From positions 1-48,266 of the IMG/VR virus record IMGVR_UViG_3300050138_000304: a stretch of DNA of 48,266 bases. The stretch is one strand, 5' to 3'. The stretch comes from a virus. The position numbers and the translations under genes were made by a program. Below are positions 128-43,828 of this stretch, piece by piece. The number at the start of each line of letters is the position of its first letter. Position 1 is the stretch's first letter. The notes beneath the pieces are model-generated. The model searched no databases. It saw nothing but the letters and a program-made list of their open reading frames with translations, and was not told where the DNA came from.

Positions 128-1017
128 TTTCCGGCGGTGTCAAGCACGCCACGAAGGGCATCAGGCGTGGTGGCATTATTCACGAGAGTACGCCAATTTG
201 CCATGATTGCGGGACTCGCCGCCGCACGCGAACCGCCATGCACACGCGCCAAGTTGGTCAGAGTCAATTCCTTCTGCGCTTGAAAGCGGCTGATTTCACG
301 TGCCGAATTCTGCGGGGTGATGTGCAGGAGGTCCGTGAGGGGGTTCATACCCCACTTCGTTGCGGCGCCTGTGACCATGCCACGGACCCCGCCGACTGCG
401 CCTTCTTGCTCTAGCGATGCCAATTCAGCGCGAGACGTACCCAGCTGTTGCAGTCCCATGAGTGCGTCGTGTTGCTGCGCCTGCACTAACTGCGGGTCTT
501 TCCCGGGCTGCACTGTCTTGAAGATGGGTTCACCTTGGGCATTGACCTCAGACATCTGGAGGGAGCCCGGCGCACCCGCCGCGCCGCTCGGCTGCGTCAT
601 CCCCATCATGTCTTTGATGCGTTGGGTCTTGGCCTGCTCCAATGCCACATCGCCCGCCGCTTTCGCTTGATTGGGTGCCATCAATTCCGCCAACTTTTCC
701 TTGACGCCCTGCGCATGCACCTGCGTCTGGGGAGAATTCGGGTTGAGCGCCTGATTCGCGGCTTCGGTATCTGCGACTTGTTTCTGTGCGGGCACACCGA
801 CGAACGGGTCATTCGACTTGGTAATGTCCGCAGCGCCTTCCGGTGTGGCCCCCGTTGCATACGTTGCAGGAAACTGCGCTTGCACGCCAAGCATGCGCCG
901 CTGTTCCTTTTGCTGCGCAATCAGATTGGCGAACGCTTCAGGGTCTACAAGCGGGTCCATTTTCGTCAAATTCTTGAGCGCCGCTAGTGACGCTTGGGGG
1001 TCAGAGGGTAGGGCCAT
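1..1017 (-). CDS. Probable internal virion protein, Gln/Ala-rich; gene spans the circle junction
   Basis: No family is recognised. The frame opens with ATG at 1017 and is still open at base 1. After removing the duplicated 127 bases it continues at 48139 and ends at TAA 48124-48122, giving 344 aa. The protein is hydrophilic, rich in Gln, Ala and Lys, with long helix-prone stretches and no signal peptide or membrane segment. It follows an 85-aa gene by a two-base gap and its stop overlaps the next start in a TAATG junction. Its place after the tail genes and before the lysis genes on the same strand is where podoviruses often carry ejected internal proteins; that role is inference from order and composition only. 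Confidence 0.75.
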   Translation of the reverse strand, partial: MALPSDPQASLAALKNLTKMDPLVDPEAFANLIAQQKEQRRMLGVQAQFPATYATGATPEGAADITKSNDPFVGVPAQKQVADTEAANQALNPNSPQTQVHAQGVKEKLAELMAPNQAKAAGDVALEQAKTQRIKDMMGMTQPSGAAGAPGSLQMSEVNAQGEPIFKTVQPGKDPQLVQAQQHDALMGLQQLGTSRAELASLEQEGAVGGVRGMVTGAATKWGMNPLTDLLHITPQNSAREISRFQAQKELTLTNLARVHGGSRAAASPAIMANWRTLVNNATTPDALRGVLDTAGNWLKTYAGAKSGAEQDALDSQLLDFFSSGAGGSAAAPSSDPST

Positions 1018-1019
1018 TG

Positions 1020-1277
1020 TTAGCTCCCGCTCGCTTTACGGAGTCCCTGCAAACTCATGGGAAACAGACTGGAGGAGGTGGGGTCCGTATTCCCAGACAT
1101 TTTGATGCCCCCCGGTTTCTTGGCACCCATCGCATCCAGGAGTCCGCCCCAGCCCGTACCAAGAAACGGATCGTAGTTAGTATCCCCTTCCGGCACTCCG
1201 ACCATCGTGGGGTCCGTCGGGACCGCCGTCTTGGGCTGATACGCCGCGTTTAGTTGGGCATTGCGTGGGTCAATCAT
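1020..1277 (-). CDS. Hypothetical small virion-region protein (85 aa)
   Basis: No recognised family. The chosen start is ATG 1277 (MIDPRNAQL), directly after the TAA of the upstream 306-aa gene (TAACATG). An upstream GTG/ATG extension would overlap that gene for no visible reason. The protein is proline- and glycine-rich with few strongly hydrophobic residues, consistent with a structural linker or ejected protein. It is co-transcribed with its neighbours on both sides. Confidence 0.6.
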   Translation of the reverse strand: MIDPRNAQLNAAYQPKTAVPTDPTMVGVPEGDTNYDPFLGTGWGGLLDAMGAKKPGGIKMSGNTDPTSSSLFPMSLQGLRKASGS

Positions 1278-1278
1278 G

Positions 1279-2199
1279 TTAGTACGTCGCCCCACTCGGA
1301 CTGAGCGCCGACATCAACCCCGACAAAGCCGAATTGCGCTGGCCTGCCACCAGTTGCGCCTGTTCCATCGCCAAGCGGTCGCGCTCCGACTGCGCCGTGA
1401 TATCTTGCCCACGCTGGGCAATCTGGCCCTCATAACCACTCACCGCTTGCTGCTCTGCAAGGGAATTGGCCGCGGTATTTGAGGCCATCGTTTGTCCGCG
1501 CTGCGTGACGCCCGCGTTCAGGTTCGTCGTGGCGTTGGCATTGGCGAGGTCCGCCGCGGTGGTGGCCTGTGTCCGACTGGCATCCCCCAGTTGCGCCTGT
1601 CCTTGCTGAGCAACACCCGCGGTGCCACGCGCTTCCAGCCCCGACCCCAGCATCCCACGTCCACCCAAGGCCGATCGCAATCCTGTCAGGGCGCCCGCAG
1701 TTTCTTGCCCGGTAGCATCTTTCGCTGCACCAAAGGCGGCACTTTGCGCTGCGGAGGTATCGACAGGTGCAAGGGTCTGCACACCGCTGAAACCGCCCGT
1801 AGATCCATTACCACCACCAGTGCTGGCCTGTATGGAACTAACGCCGCCCCCACTCGTGGATGGCACTCCCGCCGCACTCGACAGCCCAATCAGGGCCGGT
1901 GATGAGATGCCTGGGGATGGCACGGTGGCTGCATTGCCCGTTGTGGGGGGTGCTGCGGTGCCCAGGGGTGACCCAGCAGCGGCACCAAAGGCACTCACCC
2001 CCTGACCGAGCGCGGTCCCTGTGGCGGCAGCGTTCTTACGGGTTTGCGCTGCGATCGCCTGGTTGTAGGCGTCCGTACCCTTGACATACATCACCCCGTC
2101 GATGGTGTCGTAATTAGAACTCGGTGGTTGGACGGGTTTGACGCTATTGTTCTGGTACGGATCTCCGTTAGGACCCGCCGCGATAACCGTATTTCCCAT
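1279..2199 (-). CDS. Probable internal virion protein, Ala/Gly/Gln-rich (306 aa)
   Basis: No catalytic motif or known family is visible. The N-terminal 60 residues contain a 'YDTIDGVMYVKGTDAYNQAI' block. The middle is Gly/Ser/Ala/Thr-rich and the C-terminal 150 residues are Ala/Gln-rich and helix-prone, ending in a Met/Gln segment. It is the first gene after a conserved late promoter-like element (2213-2247), suggesting that it leads its own late transcript together with the two smaller genes downstream. The composition resembles ejection proteins of short-tailed phages; this is an inference. Confidence 0.7.
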   Translation of the reverse strand: MGNTVIAAGPNGDPYQNNSVKPVQPPSSNYDTIDGVMYVKGTDAYNQAIAAQTRKNAAATGTALGQGVSAFGAAAGSPLGTAAPPTTGNAATVPSPGISSPALIGLSSAAGVPSTSGGGVSSIQASTGGGNGSTGGFSGVQTLAPVDTSAAQSAAFGAAKDATGQETAGALTGLRSALGGRGMLGSGLEARGTAGVAQQGQAQLGDASRTQATTAADLANANATTNLNAGVTQRGQTMASNTAANSLAEQQAVSGYEGQIAQRGQDITAQSERDRLAMEQAQLVAGQRNSALSGLMSALSPSGATY

Positions 2200-2212
2200 A
2201 TTCAGGACTCTC

Positions 2213-2247
2213 TTCTCAGTGTACCATCATTGGCACGGATCTTGCTT
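2213..2247 (-). promoter_or_regulatory. Late promoter-like element A
   Basis: On the minus strand this reads GCAAGATCCGTGCCAATG then ATGGTACACTGAGAAG. Nearly the same roughly 36 bases occur ahead of the scaffold gene (17182-17216), and the GTACACT-GAGAAG part recurs at 44225-44240. TGGTACACT looks like an extended -10 (TGnTAnnnT). The upstream half contains the genome-wide TGGCA-N7-TGC element, here TGGCACGGATCTTGC read on the plus strand. The element sits in the 46-base gap ahead of the 306-aa gene. Promoter function is inferred from repetition and position. Confidence 0.55.
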
Positions 2248-2623
2248 AAACGAAGCCGATTTCGCCTTCCCCTTGAATCGTCAATGCTGTGGCGGTGTTG
2301 GAGCCCCCCACAAGGAAGTCGGCGACGTCCATCCGGAGGAGGCCGAGCCACTCAAAGTACGACCCAACGGGCACGGCGACACCCGTCCCAATCACCTCGG
2401 TGCCCGCGACGTTTCCCGCCGTTCCCCCTTTCCACAAACTGAAGGTGGCCGCGATCGAGGCATGTTTATTGACGATCCGCACATGCCGCAGGATGACGTA
2501 CGGCTGCGTCATGGTGTAGCCCGTCGGCCCCGTCACGGCGGTGATGTTGAAGTTCCAGATGTTCGTGGTCAACGTGGCGGTGAGGGCCACAGGACCAAGC
2601 GAGATGAGTTTGTTAGCAGCCAT
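2246..2623 (-). CDS. Small virion surface/decoration-like protein (125 aa)
   Basis: The family is not recognised. It is a beta-rich sequence with alternating Thr/Val/Ile and Gly, and a pattern (VILRHVRIVNKHASIAATF, then GTGVAVPVGSYFEWLG) typical of jelly-roll-like decoration or receptor-interface proteins. There is no signal peptide. It starts at ATG 2623, two bases after the stop of the previous frame, and its stop overlaps the regulatory element downstream. It lies after the collagen-like fibre gene, so a role at the tail tip or capsid surface is plausible but unproven. Confidence 0.65.
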   Translation of the reverse strand: MAANKLISLGPVALTATLTTNIWNFNITAVTGPTGYTMTQPYVILRHVRIVNKHASIAATFSLWKGGTAGNVAGTEVIGTGVAVPVGSYFEWLGLLRMDVADFLVGGSNTATALTIQGEGEIGFV

Positions 2624-2625
2624 AC

Positions 2626-2852
2626 TTAGACTCCTGCGAGCATGTTCCAGAATGAGGCGATTTGTGAACTGATGGCGGCATCGCTGGCGTCGGTTTTGAT
2701 GTAACCATCGGAGAAGTCGAACGTGATATTGCTGGCGACAAGATTGACACCACTCGCGATGGTCGCAGGAAGGGTACCTGTCTGCCCATTGAGTGTGTTC
2801 TTCGCCAGCCCAACGCGATTGGCACGGCGAGGCGTTTCAAGGTGTTCGCCAT
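2626..2852 (-). pseudogene. Small tail-region gene that appears frameshifted
   Basis: A strong ribosome site (TAGGAGAACAGCT) precedes ATG 2852, and translation begins MANTLKRLAVP. That frame soon becomes low-quality Arg/Ser/Pro sequence. The -1 frame over the same DNA reads convincingly as virion protein (NRVGLAKNTLNGQTGTLPA, then ASGVNLVASNITFDFSDG, ending NMLAGV with TAA at 2626-2628), yet it has no ATG, GTG or TTG start between the upstream stop (2863) and this block. A one-base loss near 2800-2830, an assembly error, or a programmed -1 shift could each explain this. No canonical slippery heptamer is obvious. Confidence 0.5.
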
Positions 2853-2862
2853 AGCTGTTCTC

Positions 2863-3243
2863 CTAGAGTGTCGCGGCCTTCGCGTGAATGGCCGCGAGCG
2901 CCGCGGCGGGCGTGATCGGGGGTAACGGCGCCGGCAGCGCCGCCCGCAGGACGTTGAGTTGATCGATGAGCGCGAGCACGAGCGCCCGCGTGGCGATCGG
3001 GAAGCTGTCGACATCGGCCTGCGCGGCGAATTGCGGTGTCGCCGCGGGGCTCGTCTCGAGGACGTTCCGCGCCGCCGTCACATGAGCGGGTAGCCAGGCG
3101 GTCGCTTTCTTGAGCGAATAGGTCGCGGAGCCGGGCATGTGCTGATAGCCCGCCGTGGCATCGAGCGCGCGCAAGTTCGCGAGGAGCGTCGCCGGGTCGG
3201 GCTCGGTCGTGCGGGTCACGCTGAACGCTTGGTAGGCACTCAC
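2863..3243 (-). CDS. Hypothetical tail-region protein, Ala/Pro-rich (126 aa)
   Basis: The start is set at GTG 3243 because it overlaps the TGA of the collagen-like fibre gene in a GTGA junction; an ATG six codons upstream would lie inside that gene. The sequence is Ala/Leu/Pro-rich, with a helical C-terminal half ('[19 protein letters not shown]') and no recognised domain. Similar small helical proteins often sit beside phage fibre genes as chaperones or tip subunits; here that is only a positional guess. Confidence 0.65.
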
Positions 3244-4442
3244 AGGACTTCGCCTACACACGTGCCAAACGCATACGTCGCGTTCACGCTGGCCGAAAAC
3301 GTCGCGGCGCTGTTGCCGTTCTGGATGAGGATTTGCGAGAGACCCGCGATCGTGATGAAGCGACCCCCGAGCTGCGTGACGAGATTATCTAAAATGATGG
3401 CAAAGCTGGAGGCGTTGCCGCCCGTAAATATAAAGCCGCCAAACTGGCCGCCGGCGATCTGCAGGAGAGCCGTGGGCGTCCCGGCGATCGACGTCGTTAG
3501 CACTTCAACCGCGACGCTCAGGCGCCGCCCATCAAGGAGATACTTCATGATCGAGCGGTCGCCGACGTCGACGGTCCACGTCATCGCGCCGCTGCCGGTA
3601 AAGTCGCCGGCAACATAGGCGGGCGTAATCCATGCACCTTGCGCGTGCTGGACGAGACGCCAGCGCGGCGTCCCCGCGACGAGGCTCGCGTCGTAGACGT
3701 AGCGCGCGGCCCCGCCCGGCGCGATGGAGGTCGGGCCAGAGGTCGCGTTATTCGTCACGCGCCACGCGGCCGCCGGGGTCGCATGTTCGTGGATGAGATC
3801 GGTTTGCTGCGTGCCGAGATTACGGAACGTGAGTGATTGTCCGTCTTGGCCGGGCGCGATCCCCTGCACGGTCAAGAGCGCGGCGTTGAGCAGAAAGATC
3901 GTGAGCGGCCCGTTGCCGGGCGGAATCGGGAGCGCGTTCTGCACGCCCGTCGTCGTGATCGTGAGCGTGCCGGGGCCCCAGGTCGGCATCGTCGCTGGCC
4001 ACGGCCACACGAGATCATCGCCGTCCTGGCCGTCGAACCCCATCGGGCCGGGCGCACCTACCGCGCCCGCGGCCCCTTGCGCGCCCGGAGCGCCAGGGCC
4101 GCCCGGTGCGCCCGGCACACCGTCCGCGCCGTCGATGCCGTCAATGCCGTCGAGCCCCATCCCGACCGGTCCCTGCACTCCTTGAGCGCCGCGCGCGCCA
4201 ACAATTCCCGAAGGACCCGGTTCGCCCTCGGCGCCGTCGTCACCGGGAAATCCGCGAGGTCCAGCCGTAACGGTATTGCTGGCGGCGCTATTCTTCGTCG
4301 CAAGCAGCGCCGACACGTCCACACCCAATCCTCGCAGCGCCCCAAAGAGCACTTCGAACATCTGGTTGACGCCCTCGACTTGCGTTTCGGTGAGGGGCCA
4401 TGCGAGTTCGTAGAGTGGACGACCGGGGACTGTCAGCGCCAT
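3240..4442 (-). CDS. Tail fibre/appendage protein with collagen-like repeats (400 aa)
   Basis: Residues 1-55 form a helical N-terminal module. Residues about 60-145 are a run of Gly-X-Y triplets ([37 protein letters not shown]), the hallmark of phage collagen-like triple helices. The remaining 250 residues are beta-rich and end in a Cys-containing tip (GTCVGEVL). This predicts a trimeric fibre or spike: N-terminal anchor, collagen shaft, and C-terminal head that may bind the host. The start overlaps the stop of the 538-aa tail gene (TAATG). Whether it is a tail or capsid fibre cannot be told from sequence. Confidence 0.8.
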
Positions 4443-6058
4443 TAGCGACGCCCAATCAGATTGACGGGGTTAATTTCGTACCCGAATAGGTTGACGTCCA
4501 CGCCGACTTCCGCATTCACCAATTCCAGTTGCGCGTGTTTGCCAGTGCCGAGACGCCCCAACCGTTGACGGGATTTAGTGAGGTCGGCGTATTGCGTCTT
4601 GGTAATTGAGGCGTTGCTACTACCGACCCGAGACACCACAGACAGATGCCCAGTGGGTTGCGCCACACCCAGAATGCTTACTTCGCCAAAGAACTTTTCT
4701 TGATCAGGCGTCTCTACTGCGTGCCGCTTTCCAATGGCGTCGAATGTGATGGCCGTGGCGGTATCCGCAAGACCATCCTGCCGCGCATCCTGATCCTGAA
4801 ACACCGATGCCGCACTCCCAACCATCGGGAGGCTACGATTGGCGCTGTTGGTCCGCAGGAACGCCGACGTCGGCGTAAACAACGTCGTCAGATGGGGTCC
4901 CCACCATGTGCCATCGGCAATGTTGTATTCAATCCACGTATTAACGACTGAACTGCCTGCCGCAGCAAGATACAGTCGATAGCAGGGACGTGCCACATCA
5001 ATCGTGGCAAACGCAATCGGAAACAGGTCTTGGTTGAAGTAGCTGGTCGTTGTGAACCACGATCGCACATTCCCCTTCGTATCGGTGCCGTTTGAAATGC
5101 ACGTGATCCCCGCCGAGTTCCATGTATACACACCATCCTTCCAGAGGAAGTAGGCCGTATCGCGAAATACCTTCATCGTCTCTTGCGACTCCAGTCCGAG
5201 TTCTCTCGAAAGGATAATGACGTTAAGGTCAGTGTCGGTAAACCCGAGCGCGTTGAGCGTCTCAGCGCCGCTGCCCGTGATCTGTGCGAGGAGGTTGCGC
5301 CGTCCCACGCCAAGCGCATCCCGGCGTGGCAAGAGACCCACCACGCCGAAGAGGTCAGAGCCTTTACCCGGGATCGGTAGCGAGTTATCAGATGGCCACG
5401 CATATTGAATCCCGGCTTCAGTGTAGCGAACATCATCAATGTCGGTGTCGCCCACACCAAACAAGCGTCCACGGAATTCCGCAATGCACGTCAGACGGGG
5501 TGGGGTGCCGAGAACGGGTGCCCCGAAGATGGAAAGTCCCGCATCAGGGAGATTGTCCTGAATAGTCGTGATAACGTTGCCATTCAGATCCACCCACTGA
5601 AAATACACGGCACCGTTATCCGTGGTGCGGTAGAGACGTCGCAGTGTAATCTGGTCCGGCGAGACATCCACACTGGCCGCTTGCAGAAATTGACTGGTGA
5701 TGGTGACACCTAAACTCGGTGGGCTGTAGTCACTCTCGCTGATGATGTTGCCGAAGGCATCCAAGGTGACGAAGGTCGCTTTGACCATGAAGTGTCCGGT
5801 GAGTGTGCTGCTGCCCTGCCCCGTCAGGACGGGCTGAAGGCGGGGTGGCTTCGGCGTGAGCAACCGCACGATGCCCAGTGCGTCAATGATGAGGGGCTGG
5901 CTGGGCGTGTTCACTAGCACGGCGTAGTTGCCGTAGATCACCCAGCGAGGCGGCACATCGGTACGCAGCGTAATCCCCGTAGGGAGGGTCAGCGTGGACA
6001 GCACTCCGGCATCACTGAGCCGTTGAAGGGAGGTGCCTGCTTGAATGATGGACGGCAT
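4442..6058 (-). CDS. Tail hub/nozzle-like beta-propeller protein (538 aa)
   Basis: The middle of the protein (about residues 185-260) carries the pattern '[20 protein letters not shown]' followed by '[15 protein letters not shown]'. This is typical of short-tailed phage nozzle and DNA-stabilisation proteins, in which a propeller blade is followed by a Tyr/Trp-Pro turn. The rest is beta-rich with regular blade-like spacing. Length and position (after a 913-aa tail protein and before the fibre) fit a tail-tube or nozzle component. The start and stop overlap both neighbours in TAATG form, so its expression is coupled. Family assignment is by motif only. Confidence 0.65.
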
Positions 6059-39736: not shown

Positions 39737-39940
39737 ATGAAGGCCGAATGGGTTGAACAGGATGGTGCGCGCATGTGGAGGGGTGGAGGTTTCTCGTCCC
39801 ACGAATATGAAGCGGTAATCCGCGTCTCTTTCTCTTCAGCGGATATTGCAGCCCTACAGTCGCGGAATGTCCGTGACGCAATTCCCGCATTCAGAAACCA
39901 GATCAAGGACGTTCTTCTTGACCTTGTTAGCAAAGGGTAG
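39737..39940 (+). CDS. Hypothetical small protein (67 aa)
   Basis: The start is ATG 39737 after AGAAAGAGGCATACA (MKAEWVEQDGARMWRGGGFS). The rest is charged with a helical end (QIKDVLLDLVSKG). It ends one base before the polymerase start. No family is recognised. Confidence 0.6.
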   Translation: MKAEWVEQDGARMWRGGGFSSHEYEAVIRVSFSSADIAALQSRNVRDAIPAFRNQIKDVLLDLVSKG

Positions 39941-39941
39941 G

Positions 39942-42842
39942 ATGCGCGAGCAGACGGCGGTATGTGACTTCGAAACGCGTAGCGCCTGCTCGCTGAAAAA
40001 CAGCGGCGCGTGGCGCTACTCCAGGGACTCGACCACCGAAGTGTTGTGTCTTGCGTTTCGATTGCCGTACTGGACGGAGGGCCGGGTGTCATTGTGGCAT
40101 CCGGCCTTTCCACAAATCGATCTCCCCGAGGAGGGCGAATGGGATGCGCTGACAGCATTGGTGGAGTGGATTCAACAGGGCGGCTTATTGGAAGCGCACA
40201 ACGCCGCCTTCGAACGCTGCATTTGGACAAATATTCTGACGCCAATCCATTACTTCCCTTTGCCGACGCTGGCACAATGGAGATGCTCCGCTGCGAAATG
40301 CGCGGCCCATGCCCTGCCCCGCAAGTTGGAAGACGCGGGACTGGCGTTGAAGTTACGCGAGCAGAAGGACGCCGAGGGGCACAAGGTCATGCTCAAAGTG
40401 AGCAAGCCGCGCAAATCTCGCAAGGCGGAACGGGCGGCATGGGAGAAGGCGTCTACTCCTATACCGTCCATTTTGTGGCACGAAACGGTACCCCTCTTTC
40501 AACGACTCTTCCGGTATTGCGAACAGGACGTGCGGGCAGAAGCCGCCCTGTCCGACGCACTGCCCGACCTGAGCGCGAACGAAACCGCAATGTATACGCT
40601 GGACCAGACCATCAATCAGCGGGGGTTTCAAGTCGATGCGTTGGCGGTCACCTGCGCGCTGTCGCTGATCGACTCCGAGACGCGGCTGCTGAACGCGGAG
40701 TTGGCGACCCTCACCGGGGGACAGGTGTTGAAGGCGACCCAACGTGCCAAGATGCTGACGTGGTTCGCGACGGAGGGGCTGCACCTGGACGACACGCAGG
40801 GGACGACGCTGGACGAAATTATGTCGGGGAGTAATTCACCAAACTCCAGCGGGATTTCCTCCAAGGCGCGCCGTGGCGTGGAATTGGTGCGAACCTTGGG
40901 CCGCTCCAGCACCGCCAAGTACCAGAAGATGCAGGATTGGATGGACCCTATCGATCATCGGATTAGGGGCGGATTGCTTTTTCATGGGGCGACGACGGGA
41001 CGGTGGAGTGGTTCCGGAGTACAACCGCATAATTTTCCTCGCGGCTCCGTCAAGGAGATGAGCGACCTGTGGGACGCGATTCTGACGGAGGATCGAGCGA
41101 TCATCAGTGATGCACTGGCGCTGTATTCTGATGCAACCGGGGGCGTGATGGAAGCCCTGTCACAAGGGTTGCGCGGCGCAATTGTAGCTGCGCCAGGAAA
41201 GCAACTGTACGTAGCCGATTATGCCAGTATTGAAGCTCGGGTTGTAAATTGGTTAGCGGATGATCAGGACGCCCTTGACACGTTTCGTCAGGGTCGGGAT
41301 ATGTATTGTGATTTTGGAACATCCCTGTACCACCGCCCCATTACCAAGGCAGATAAAGATGAGCGACAACTCAGTAAAATCGCATGCCTTGCCCTTTCCT
41401 ATCAGATGGGCGCTGCGAAATTTCAGGCTACATGTGCGAAATTCAACATTACGATTGACGAAGACCTTGCGCAATTGGTGGTGGACACCTATCGCACCAA
41501 ATTCGCCCGCGTCAAACAACTCTGGTGGGATACAGAAAACGCGGCGATTACCGCCGCTCTTTCACCGGGAACAGCAGTTCAGTCAGGACGGGTTACGTGG
41601 GTTTACACCGCGCCCTTCCTTCAGTGCGTCCTCCCTTCGGGACGCAAACTGTCCTATCCCTACTCGGAAATCCGCCAACGTGAGACGCCTTGGGGGGCGC
41701 TGAAGTCGTCACTGACATTTATGGGGGTGAACCCGTTTAACCGTCAGTGGCAGAGACAAACGAGCTATGGTGGATCGCTGGTGGAGAATTGTCTAAGCGG
41801 AGGAACGCCCGTTTTGACAACTCGCGGCTGGGTTCGACTCGATCAAATATCTTTGGAAGATGAGCTATGGGATGGGGAGTCCTGGGTGTCCCACCAAGGC
41901 TTAGTTGATCACGGATGGCACGCTACGTGCATTCTCGACGGACTGAAGATTACGCCGCATCATCAAATTTTAACGCAGAGAGGGTGGCGAAGTGTCCAAG
42001 AAGCGACCGCACAAGGACTGGAGTGGGCACCGTGTAGGCGACCACCGTATTTCTTCGGTCTCCGTTTGGCGTGGTGGGCACTGGCGTTGGGTCGGAGAAT
42101 GTGTCAAGGGGCATCGTCGAACGTTCCGGTCACAGGATATTCCGACAACGGGTGGGACCTGCTCTCTTTGTCGCGCCGAACGGGTGAGGTTCGAGTTACG
42201 CCCTCGGAGAATTTGGGACGGCATGAAAACACGTTGTCTCAATCCGCGGGCCGTTGCGTACAAAAACTACGGCAAACGGGGTATTCATATCTGCAAACGG
42301 TGGCGTCTATCCTTCGACAATTTCTGGGCAGACATGCGCGAAACATACCAGCCACATTTGACTATCGAACGGATCGACAACAACGGATCGTACGAACCGC
42401 TCAATTGCCGATGGGCGACGTGTTTGGAGCAACAGGCCAACACCCGCAAAATTCGTCTCAAGCATCGTTTTCAGGCATTGGCTCAAGCACAAGGGCTTGG
42501 ACTTCGAGCGATCTACAGCCGGTACTATCGGGGCCAATCGCTCACGTCTACGACATCAAAAATAGCGGCCCGCGAAACTGCTTTGTCGTAGCTGGAGGTC
42601 GCGTGGTACATAACTGCACTCAGGCAATTGCCCGTGACCTGATGGCCGCAGCGATGTTGCGTTGTGAATTGTCCGAAGTATACCGCACCGTTCTGACAAT
42701 TCATGACGAAATTGTCTGTGAGGCGCCGGTTGGCCTGGGGAGTGTAGCAGAGTTCGAACAGTTGGTGGCGACGAACCCGGAATGGGCGAATGGGTGCCCG
42801 GTGGAAGCCGAAGGGTGGAAAGGCTCCAGATATAAAAAATGA
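39942..42842 (+). CDS. polA: Family A DNA polymerase containing an intein (966 aa precursor)
   Basis: The N-terminal 3'-5' exonuclease domain begins CDFETRS (Asp9, Glu11) with later LEAHNAAFER and YCEQDVRAEAAL. Polymerase motifs include TTGRWSGSGVQPHNFPRG, motif A LYVADYASIEARVV, the O-helix region (KDERQLSKIACLALSYQMGA) and motif C TIHDEIVCEAP. An intein of 275 aa interrupts the conserved SYGGSLVEN/CTQAIARDL segment, so the mature enzyme would be about 691 aa. There is no 5'-3' exonuclease domain. The start ATG 39942 follows GGGTAGG. It is likely the replicative polymerase. Confidence 0.9.
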   Translation: MREQTAVCDFETRSACSLKNSGAWRYSRDSTTEVLCLAFRLPYWTEGRVSLWHPAFPQIDLPEEGEWDALTALVEWIQQGGLLEAHNAAFERCIWTNILTPIHYFPLPTLAQWRCSAAKCAAHALPRKLEDAGLALKLREQKDAEGHKVMLKVSKPRKSRKAERAAWEKASTPIPSILWHETVPLFQRLFRYCEQDVRAEAALSDALPDLSANETAMYTLDQTINQRGFQVDALAVTCALSLIDSETRLLNAELATLTGGQVLKATQRAKMLTWFATEGLHLDDTQGTTLDEIMSGSNSPNSSGISSKARRGVELVRTLGRSSTAKYQKMQDWMDPIDHRIRGGLLFHGATTGRWSGSGVQPHNFPRGSVKEMSDLWDAILTEDRAIISDALALYSDATGGVMEALSQGLRGAIVAAPGKQLYVADYASIEARVVNWLADDQDALDTFRQGRDMYCDFGTSLYHRPITKADKDERQLSKIACLALSYQMGAAKFQATCAKFNITIDEDLAQLVVDTYRTKFARVKQLWWDTENAAITAALSPGTAVQSGRVTWVYTAPFLQCVLPSGRKLSYPYSEIRQRETPWGALKSSLTFMGVNPFNRQWQRQTSYGGSLVENCLSGGTPVLTTRGWVRLDQISLEDELWDGESWVSHQGLVDHGWHATCILDGLKITPHHQILTQRGWRSVQEATAQGLEWAPCRRPPYFFGLRLAWWALALGRRMCQGASSNVPVTGYSDNGWDLLSLSRRTGEVRVTPSENLGRHENTLSQSAGRCVQKLRQTGYSYLQTVASILRQFLGRHARNIPATFDYRTDRQQRIVRTAQLPMGDVFGATGQHPQNSSQASFSGIGSSTRAWTSSDLQPVLSGPIAHVYDIKNSGPRNCFVVAGGRVVHNCTQAIARDLMAAAMLRCELSEVYRTVLTIHDEIVCEAPVGLGSVAEFEQLVATNPEWANGCPVEAEGWKGSRYKK
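41790..42614 (+). other. Intein inserted in the DNA polymerase (275 aa)
   Basis: Block A begins with Cys1 (CLSGGTPVLTTRGWVRLDQI). Block B has ITPHHQILTQRGW with the conserved T-x-x-H. The C-terminal blocks are IAHVYDIKNSG and VAGGRVVHN, ending with His-Asn and followed by Cys+1 (CTQAIARD). All splicing residues are present. The region between block B and block F is about 180 aa long in this frame but has no recognisable endonuclease; the endonuclease is in another frame. Insertion at a polymerase active-site motif is typical for inteins. Confidence 0.9.
41992..42591 (+). CDS. HNH homing endonuclease nested out of frame inside the intein (199 aa)
   Basis: Starts with GTG 41992 after a GAGAGGGTGGCGAA ribosome site and runs in the +1 frame relative to the polymerase/intein. 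The N-terminal module (DWSGHRVGDHRISSVSVWRG and GTCSLCRAERV) is followed by the classical phage HNH core: RIWDGMKTRCLNPRAVAYKN, YGKRGIHICKRW, FDNFWADMRETYQPHLTIER and IDNNGSYEPLNCRWAT. The protein appears complete and intact. Its last 20 codons overlap the C-terminal splicing blocks of the intein. It would cut intein-less polymerase alleles to spread the element. Confidence 0.85.
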   Translation: MSKKRPHKDWSGHRVGDHRISSVSVWRGGHWRWVGECVKGHRRTFRSQDIPTTGGTCSLCRAERVRFELRPRRIWDGMKTRCLNPRAVAYKNYGKRGIHICKRWRLSFDNFWADMRETYQPHLTIERIDNNGSYEPLNCRWATCLEQQANTRKIRLKHRFQALAQAQGLGLRAIYSRYYRGQSLTSTTSKIAARETALS

Positions 42843-42861
42843 TTCAGCATATGGTGGAAGT

Positions 42862-42981
42862 GTGTGCGAGAAACCTTTGGAAGTAACTCGCCGTCGAACA
42901 GCCCCGCACCGCATTTGCCCTTCTGAAGAGTGTCGAAGGCTATGGGGAATTGAAACTGCATCATGGAGACGTCGCAAATGA
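42862..42981 (+). CDS. Small Cys/Arg-rich protein (39 aa)
   Basis: Starts with GTG 42862 (VCEKPLEVTRRRTAPHRICP) and ends SEECRRLWGIETASWRRRK, with a TGA that overlaps the Dam-like gene start (ATGA). GGTGGAAGT precedes it. The Cys spacing (ICPSEEC) may form part of a zinc site. The overlap, and the clean frame directly after the polymerase, support it. Confidence 0.5.
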   Translation: MCEKPLEVTRRRTAPHRICPSEECRRLWGIETASWRRRK

Positions 42982-43451
42982 GACAGATGCCCGTGCAGAA
43001 ACCCGGCCGTAGCAAACAGAACTACGCCACGCCCCGGCCCTTTGTGCGTGCCGTCGAATCCCTGTTAGGCATTGACGCCTTTGACCATGACTTCGCTGCG
43101 GAACCGTCTACCGCGGTATGCCCCTCCTACTGGACGAAAGAGCAGAACGCTTTTCATCAGCGATGGGATGTATCGGGGTGGGGCTGGCTGAATCCCCCGT
43201 TTGCGGACATCGCGCCGTGGGCCACACAATGCCGAATTCGTGGGTCTAAGGGCGGACGGATTGCCTTACTGGTTCCGGCCAGCGTGGGGTCGAACTGGTT
43301 CTACAATGATGTCGCCAGCCATGCTTTTGTGCTGTTCCTGAATGGGCGCCTGTCCTTTGACGGCGTTGGCCCCTTCCCCAAGGACTGCATGTTGTGTCTG
43401 TTTGGCCCGGATTATGCTCCGGGGTACGATGTGTGGAACTGGAGGCAGTGA
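42978..43451 (+). CDS. dam: Dam-like DNA N6-adenine methylase, phage type (157 aa)
   Basis: Matches the small phage Dam family: N-terminal 'RSKQNYATPRPFVRAVESLL', 'FDHDFAAEPSTAVCPSYWT', the catalytic WLNPPFAD (NPPF for DPPY) and a C-terminal VLFLNGRLSFDGVGPFPKDC. The enzyme would methylate adenine in phage DNA, protecting it from host restriction or marking replicated DNA. The start is ATG 42978 (overlap with the 39-aa gene, GGAGACGTCGC upstream); ATG 42963 is a weaker alternative. Confidence 0.85.
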   Translation: MRQMPVQKPGRSKQNYATPRPFVRAVESLLGIDAFDHDFAAEPSTAVCPSYWTKEQNAFHQRWDVSGWGWLNPPFADIAPWATQCRIRGSKGGRIALLVPASVGSNWFYNDVASHAFVLFLNGRLSFDGVGPFPKDCMLCLFGPDYAPGYDVWNWRQ

Positions 43452-43828
43452 TGAGTGGACGACTACAACAGACAGTCACCGCGACGACAACCCAAGAAGT
43501 TGTCATTGCGCCCAAACTCAAGACCAAGCTCCAAAAGGAACTGCGTGCCTATGCCCAGTTGCAATTGGAGATGGACACCCTGAAAGCTAAGGTGGATGCC
43601 CGCAAGTCGCTGATTGAAGCCATTCGGGACGAGGTGGGCGAGGAGTCGATTCAGTGCGACGGGTTCACTGTGACGCTCGTGGCAGGTATGCAGAAGACCT
43701 TGAACAAGGACAAACTGGTCGAACTCGGGTGTGCGCTGGCGTGGATCGAAGAGGCCACGGAGCAGAAGCCGAAGAAGGCGTATACGTTGATTACGGCGCC
43801 GGGACGCCGGTCCCATACCGCCGACTAG
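43451..43828 (+). CDS. Coiled-coil hypothetical protein (125 aa)
   Basis: TGATG overlap with the methylase gene. Residues about 15-65 form a strong coiled coil (KLKTKLQKELRAYAQLQLEM, DTLKAKVDARKSLIEAIRDE). The rest is a small mixed domain (GFTVTLVAGMQKTLNKDKLV) ending in a Lys-rich tail. This pattern is seen in uncharacterised phage proteins near replication genes. It is the last plus-strand gene, ending six bases from the converging secreted-protein gene. Confidence 0.65.
   Translation: MSGRLQQTVTATTTQEVVIAPKLKTKLQKELRAYAQLQLEMDTLKAKVDARKSLIEAIRDEVGEESIQCDGFTVTLVAGMQKTLNKDKLVELGCALAWIEEATEQKPKKAYTLITAPGRRSHTAD

Follow-up and report, generated by a model that had tools for sequence, protein, structure and literature searches.

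How can one stretch of phage DNA encode both an intein within a DNA polymerase and a complete homing endonuclease gene that is read in a different frame? The question arises from an IMG/VR virus record (IMGVR_UViG_3300050138_000304), which was analyzed in its entirety and is called here the window (48 266 nt).

Intein and nested ORF of the window

The features under discussion are all on the plus strand:

39942..42842 (+), family A DNA polymerase precursor, 966 aa with the intein and 691 aa once spliced
41790..42614 (+), intein, 275 aa, inserted as LVEN^C...N^CTQA; supported by conserved blocks, profile, fold and an intein-less homologue
41790..42002 (+), N-terminal splicing part with blocks A and B, intein residues 1–71; supported by pLDDT and conserved in all homologues
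41971..41973 (+), stop codon of the HNH frame just 5′ of the HNH start; the stop-to-stop interval of this frame begins at 41974
41977..41984 (+), Shine-Dalgarno-like AGAGAGGG within block B codons, 8–15 nt 5′ of the GTG; anti-SD duplex −7.0 kcal/mol
41992..42591 (+), HNH-family homing endonuclease ORF, 199 aa, GTG to TAG, at +1 relative to the intein frame; supported by a PHROG match
42066..42521 (+), middle of the intein frame, residues 93–244, largely low-confidence filler overlapping the HNH gene; judged by pLDDT and pN/pS
42525..42614 (+), C-terminal splicing part with blocks F and G, residues 246–275, VYDIKNSGPRNCFVVAGGRVVHN; supported by pLDDT

The original prediction, that the polymerase frame runs unbroken through a 275-aa intein with intact blocks, was exact in its coordinates. 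This frame has no stop from 39819 to 42842, with ATG 39942 giving 966 aa, and its ORF matched Pfam DNA_pol_A (E 7.8e-19) and a PHROG DNA polymerase family (E 1.2e-87). The intein extends from Cys1 (41790) to Asn275 (42614) and is followed by Cys+1 (42615), so that the junctions read ...SYGGSLVEN^CLSGGTPVLTTRGW...ITPHHQILTQRGW...VYDIKNSGPRNCFVVAGGRVVHN^CTQAIARD. In an alignment of 33 sequences Cys1 (the block A nucleophile of class 1 inteins), T55 and H58 of the block B motif TxxH (present as TPHH) and Asn275 are invariant; Cys+1, which follows the C-terminal VVHN, is conserved. The intein profile matched the PI-MtuI and NEQ068 inteins in PDB. An AlphaFold model made with the 33 sequences has pLDDT >95 for intein residues 1–80 and 96–97 for residues 251–275, and its best Foldseek matches were the NpuDnaE, DnaX and gp41-1 inteins. 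Residues 93–98, 100–146 and 182–244 have pLDDT <50; this unstructured middle is the stretch that overlaps the HNH gene. Across the insertion site the intein-less polymerase of phage Donnerlittchen reads ...YGGMLVEN|ITQAAARDLM..., thus the +1 Cys stands in place of Ile. By its blocks, its Hint fold and the empty site in a homologue the insert is a class 1 intein; self-splicing is inferred.

The second ORF, predicted as a complete 199-aa HNH protein running in the +1 frame from GTG 41992 to TAG 42591, was confirmed to the nucleotide. It matched two families of HNH endonucleases, PHROG 3377 (E 1.4e-38) and PHROG 374 (E 3.7e-36), though a Pfam search with this ORF returned no match and a Foldseek search with its model no useful one. 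The stop upstream in its frame is separated from the GTG by 18 nt. The third frame is closed across the overlap (open run of 44 codons). When the HNH was aligned with 31 nested homologues, every column invariant across the 32 proteins was kept in the window; two features of most relatives are missing from it, the HGMSxHPAY segment and one Cys of a CxC pair. Among solved structures I-HmuI (1u3e) alone matched the nuclease family in sequence, and only weakly (E 0.012, in an N-containing core). That enzyme is intron-encoded and differs in a further respect: at the position of its catalytic His75 the nested family has an invariant Arg127, Arg being found in free-standing relatives too. Catalysis would therefore differ from that of canonical HNH enzymes, and activity is unproved; for the nested nuclease ‘HNH’ is a family label only, with cleavage and homing inferred from sequence.

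At 42963–43451 the window has another ORF that by eye, and by eye only, resembles a phage N6-adenine methyltransferase (motif WLNPPF).

Selection and translation signals in the two frames

That a second frame would hardly stay open by chance had been estimated from the sequence, and simulation came close to that estimate: when the HNH codons were replaced by synonyms according to the gene's own codon use, none of 2000 trials left the intein frame open, and stops in it averaged 9.1. Given the HNH protein, some nine stops are thus expected across the overlap and none is observed. In the nested loci, T before AA/AG/GA codons occurred in 0 of 1256 cases; this figure is partly built in, as loci were chosen as open ORFs, so we rely on the per-sequence recoding, on the genome scan seeded on inteins (see below) and on a control of free-standing HNH relatives from the fetched loci, where the corresponding frequencies were 37.6% versus 37.7%, i.e. 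there was no avoidance.

The original prediction had proposed a search of related inteins for the same nested frame with selection tests in both frames. The nesting does recur, and for 23 moderately close pairs, not independent of one another, median pN/pS was 0.31 in the HNH frame versus 1.44 in the intein frame (both for the overlap only), with the exteins at 0.51. At 27.0%, the identity of intein-frame amino acids was barely above the 25.6% of synonymous shuffles, a tiny excess confounded by relatedness. Taken together, these values mean that conservation at the protein level is seen for the HNH, while the middle of the intein only stays open. Hence the claim of two overlapping proteins holds in that both coding sequences are real, but not if it is understood as equal constraint: the HNH frame is under purifying selection, and the intein-frame middle behaves as disordered filler merely kept free of stops.

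Signals for translation of the nested gene recur across the family. HNH starts are found at intein nt 187 (ATG) or 202 (GTG or ATG), within block B codons, and the codons for DHEVLT or EKGW ahead of the start supply GAGGT or AAGGG. Mean anti-SD pairing in the family was −6.18 kcal/mol versus −5.21 kcal/mol for synonymous recoding (P = 0.001), a modest enrichment. Two members (L079, TGA-ATG; L109, TAG-ATG) have the upstream stop abutting the HNH start, so that a frameshift fusion has practically no room there; as far as sequence can tell, these junctions point to independent initiation.

Nesting in related inteins

The same +1 nesting was observed in phages APSE-1, APSE-4, Caulobacter GB2A and Shewanella SFCi1, as well as in ∼35 other IMG/VR viruses and ∼17 bacterial genome contigs. 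Single-sequence queries (the window intein or HNH) retrieved few relatives in scans of viral contigs; alignment queries worked. Phage and IMG/VR records yielded 40 distinct intein ORFs, 38 of which carried the HNH at +1; the remaining two were an intein with the HNH at +2 (L142) and a 128-aa mini-intein without HNH (L162). This sample was found partly via HNH similarity and an open ORF was required, so that the cleaner sample is a genome scan that started from the C-block pattern of the intein alone, not from the HNH (the block A/B alignment gave no usable search pattern). The scan produced 28 loci, including 17 intact +1 HNHs and seven mini-inteins without HNH; the +1 HNH was decayed in L178 and L180 and reduced to a remnant in L192, and +2 HNHs were present in L176 and L178.

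We saw no in-frame HNH among the 40 phage and IMG/VR intein ORFs and the 28 genome-scan loci, a statement limited to inteins that were sampled by means of models derived from nested examples. Within this sample the observation that would have refuted the original prediction, homologues with the HNH always in frame, did not materialize. The other frame offset was usually closed in homologues. As the layout recurs in dozens of divergent phages, compensating sequencing errors, i.e. the pair of indels that resequencing was meant to rule out, are excluded.

The nested inteins reside in family A polymerases (at several sites), in SNF2/DEAD-type helicases (checked by Pfam) and in one probable large terminase (L055, ∼2400–3400), where the insertion GKGADL^C...HN^CIIDD has a Pfam Intein_splicing match and an HNH at +1 whose lineage sits among free-standing HNHs. 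Two polymerase genes have two inteins each, one with a +2 and the other with a +1 HNH (L013, ORF 868–4701; L094, ORF 1499–5185); a third (L178, ORF containing 2502–4226) combines a +2 HNH with the decayed +1 HNH. In L013 (in its +1 HNH) and L180 a stop falls inside the HNH with the intein frame intact, thus decay of the HNH can be harmless to the host gene.

Frame continuity has an exception in L133, where undetermined bases are present. Furthermore, in the upstream intein of L110 (1–1250) and in L182 (4001–4953) the N and C blocks are in different frames and there is no continuous precursor; these could be pseudogenes, sequencing errors or something else. In both, the third frame holds an intact HNH ORF between the two blocks, with the same order of +1 steps from N to HNH to C.

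Some loci showed other arrangements. A 1601-aa polymerase ORF (L191, 338–5140) contains an in-frame LAGLIDADG domain (Pfam E 7.5e-12), an in-frame case for contrast, and separately a 178-aa intein without HNH. The inteins of a Pasteurella (L192) and an Aggregatibacter (L193) locus are inserted at DSSNIE^C, a site that looks like polymerase motif A.

In the HNH tree most nested +1 proteins form one group (SH-aLRT 99), which includes one free-standing relative encoded directly 5′ of a polymerase gene (L043, 3761–4402), a candidate donor or escapee. The +2 HNHs make a clade of their own (99), and a separate group of +1 HNHs comes from bacterial contigs (e.g. L179, L186, L187). The window HNH, on a long branch, pairs with that of L008, to which it is 44% identical and which is also intact; an AU test with a reduced set did not reject a tree uniting the window, L008 and the main nested group in a single clade (P = 0.92). 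Nesting is a widespread and apparently convergent arrangement. With regard to mobility, intein DNA of APSE-1 (L004) and L013 is 97.6% identical and the adjacent exteins ∼84–88%, as expected from recent transfer of the whole unit; as evidence on homing this is only indirect. A seemingly huge divergence of the L013 and APSE exteins was rejected, being inflated by the second intein of L013.

One could go further and propose that in a broad range of phage and prophage inteins, of polymerases, helicases and terminases, the endonuclease is always overprinted and independently translated, never fused; that this state had more than one origin (several HNH clades at +1, another at +2); that block B codons double as the ribosome-binding site; and that nesting may be a standard route of HNH acquisition. 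We lean towards this generalization, with considerable reservation.

Alternative readings and known systems

The best explanation for the window, to which we assign a probability of ∼0.88, is a mini-intein hosting an independently translated, out-of-frame HNH homing endonuclease gene; splicing, expression, cleavage and homing are all inferred. It would be a composite mobile element, a mini-intein of ∼120 functional residues with the whole HNH gene in the endonuclease slot at +1. Ribosomes in the polymerase frame would cross the element without meeting a stop, yielding a precursor from which the Hint domain is predicted, by motifs and fold, to excise itself. Helped by SD-like codons of block B, other ribosomes would initiate at the GTG in that block and produce the endonuclease as a separate protein, internal initiation being inferred from the conserved start, SD and stop. 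Polymerase alleles without the intein could then be cut by the endonuclease and would gain the entire unit during repair. For a complete gene to lie inside an essential one with start and stop codons of its own, it must be in another frame; out-of-frame nesting would let the endonuclease gene keep these codons without truncating the polymerase. The cost would be stop avoidance in the intein frame, and the extra peptide may be no more than a disordered loop discarded with the intein.

It is unlikely, though it cannot be dismissed, that the HNH of the window phage no longer works and that the element is a relic, a mini-intein with bulky filler whose ORF survives by recency. The long branch, the lost segment and the Cys change would fit such a history, as would the decayed HNHs of relatives (L013, L180, L178 and L192); however, the window ORF is complete, its start, SD and stop are present, it has kept all the invariant columns, and its relative L008 is intact too. 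We give still less credence to a Hint-HNH fusion made by programmed +1 frameshifting near block B instead of internal initiation: the +1 offset is indeed constant in most members, but in L079 and L109 an in-frame stop immediately precedes the start and in the window the distance is 18 nt, start codons recur at the same two intein positions, and a second clade is at +2.

Two further possibilities have next to no support left. With the window stemming from one metagenome-derived virus record, a chance open frame, a sequencing error or an assembly artefact might be suspected; this is refuted by the homologues, the layout being conserved in dozens of independent records, isolate phages included, and none of the 2000 recodings was open. 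Group I introns commonly carry HNH genes, and an RNA intron with an HNH ORF would be removed from the mRNA; yet an Rfam search of 41000–43500 gave no match even at E up to 1, and the host frame is stop-free with intact intein blocks and a Hint fold.

The nested-gene reading departs from the usual in-frame fusion, as the original prediction had it, with the HNH at +1; uniqueness could not be upheld, the layout being widespread with isolated precedents already known. The APSE-1 record (NC_000935) annotates P46, an HNH endonuclease, within P45, a DNA polymerase, in another frame. As in the window, the intein is of the same family, the host is a family A polymerase and the HNH lies at +1 at the homologous position; the APSE-1 intein is inserted three codons upstream (YGGK[SL]^C...^CEN versus LVEN^C...^CTQ) and is ∼34% identical. 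The P45/P46 overlap is not discussed in the APSE papers searched. A 2015 paper mentions in passing a putative intein-encoded HNH, out of frame, in the large terminase of brucellaphages, where a SNP changes the HNH and is silent in the terminase (PMC4422536); the likeness lies in an out-of-frame HNH within an intein-bearing gene, although the gene is a terminase and not a polymerase.

More recently (2025), out-of-frame HNHs were described in phage methylases without splicing domains, the ShiLan domain (PMC11855218). ShiLan also has a complete GTG-start HNH ORF in another frame with the host frame open across the insert, but its insert has no intein splicing domain and its HNH is at +2 and of a different family; HNH models built from nested HNHs gave no match to it. 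The window thus meets the ShiLan features of an out-of-frame HNH and an open host frame and fails that of an absent splicing domain. Bifunctional inteins share with the window the Hint splicing blocks and a homing endonuclease between blocks B and F; in them the endonuclease belongs to the same polypeptide and the frame of the splicing blocks, while here it is a separate overlapping gene at +1. We found no systematic account of nested out-of-frame intein HNHs in the literature searched, subscription journals and preprints being outside the search.

How inteins and homing endonucleases come to cohabit is an open question in the field, and the layout is a way of combining the two without fusion. 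Nested endonucleases are missed by gene finders that suppress overlaps, e.g. in the Caulobacter GB2A and Shewanella SFCi1 records, where the polymerase alone is annotated. The arrangement predicts a two-frame translation system that is directly measurable, and it offers a natural system of overlapping genes in which one frame is selected and the other only kept stop-free.
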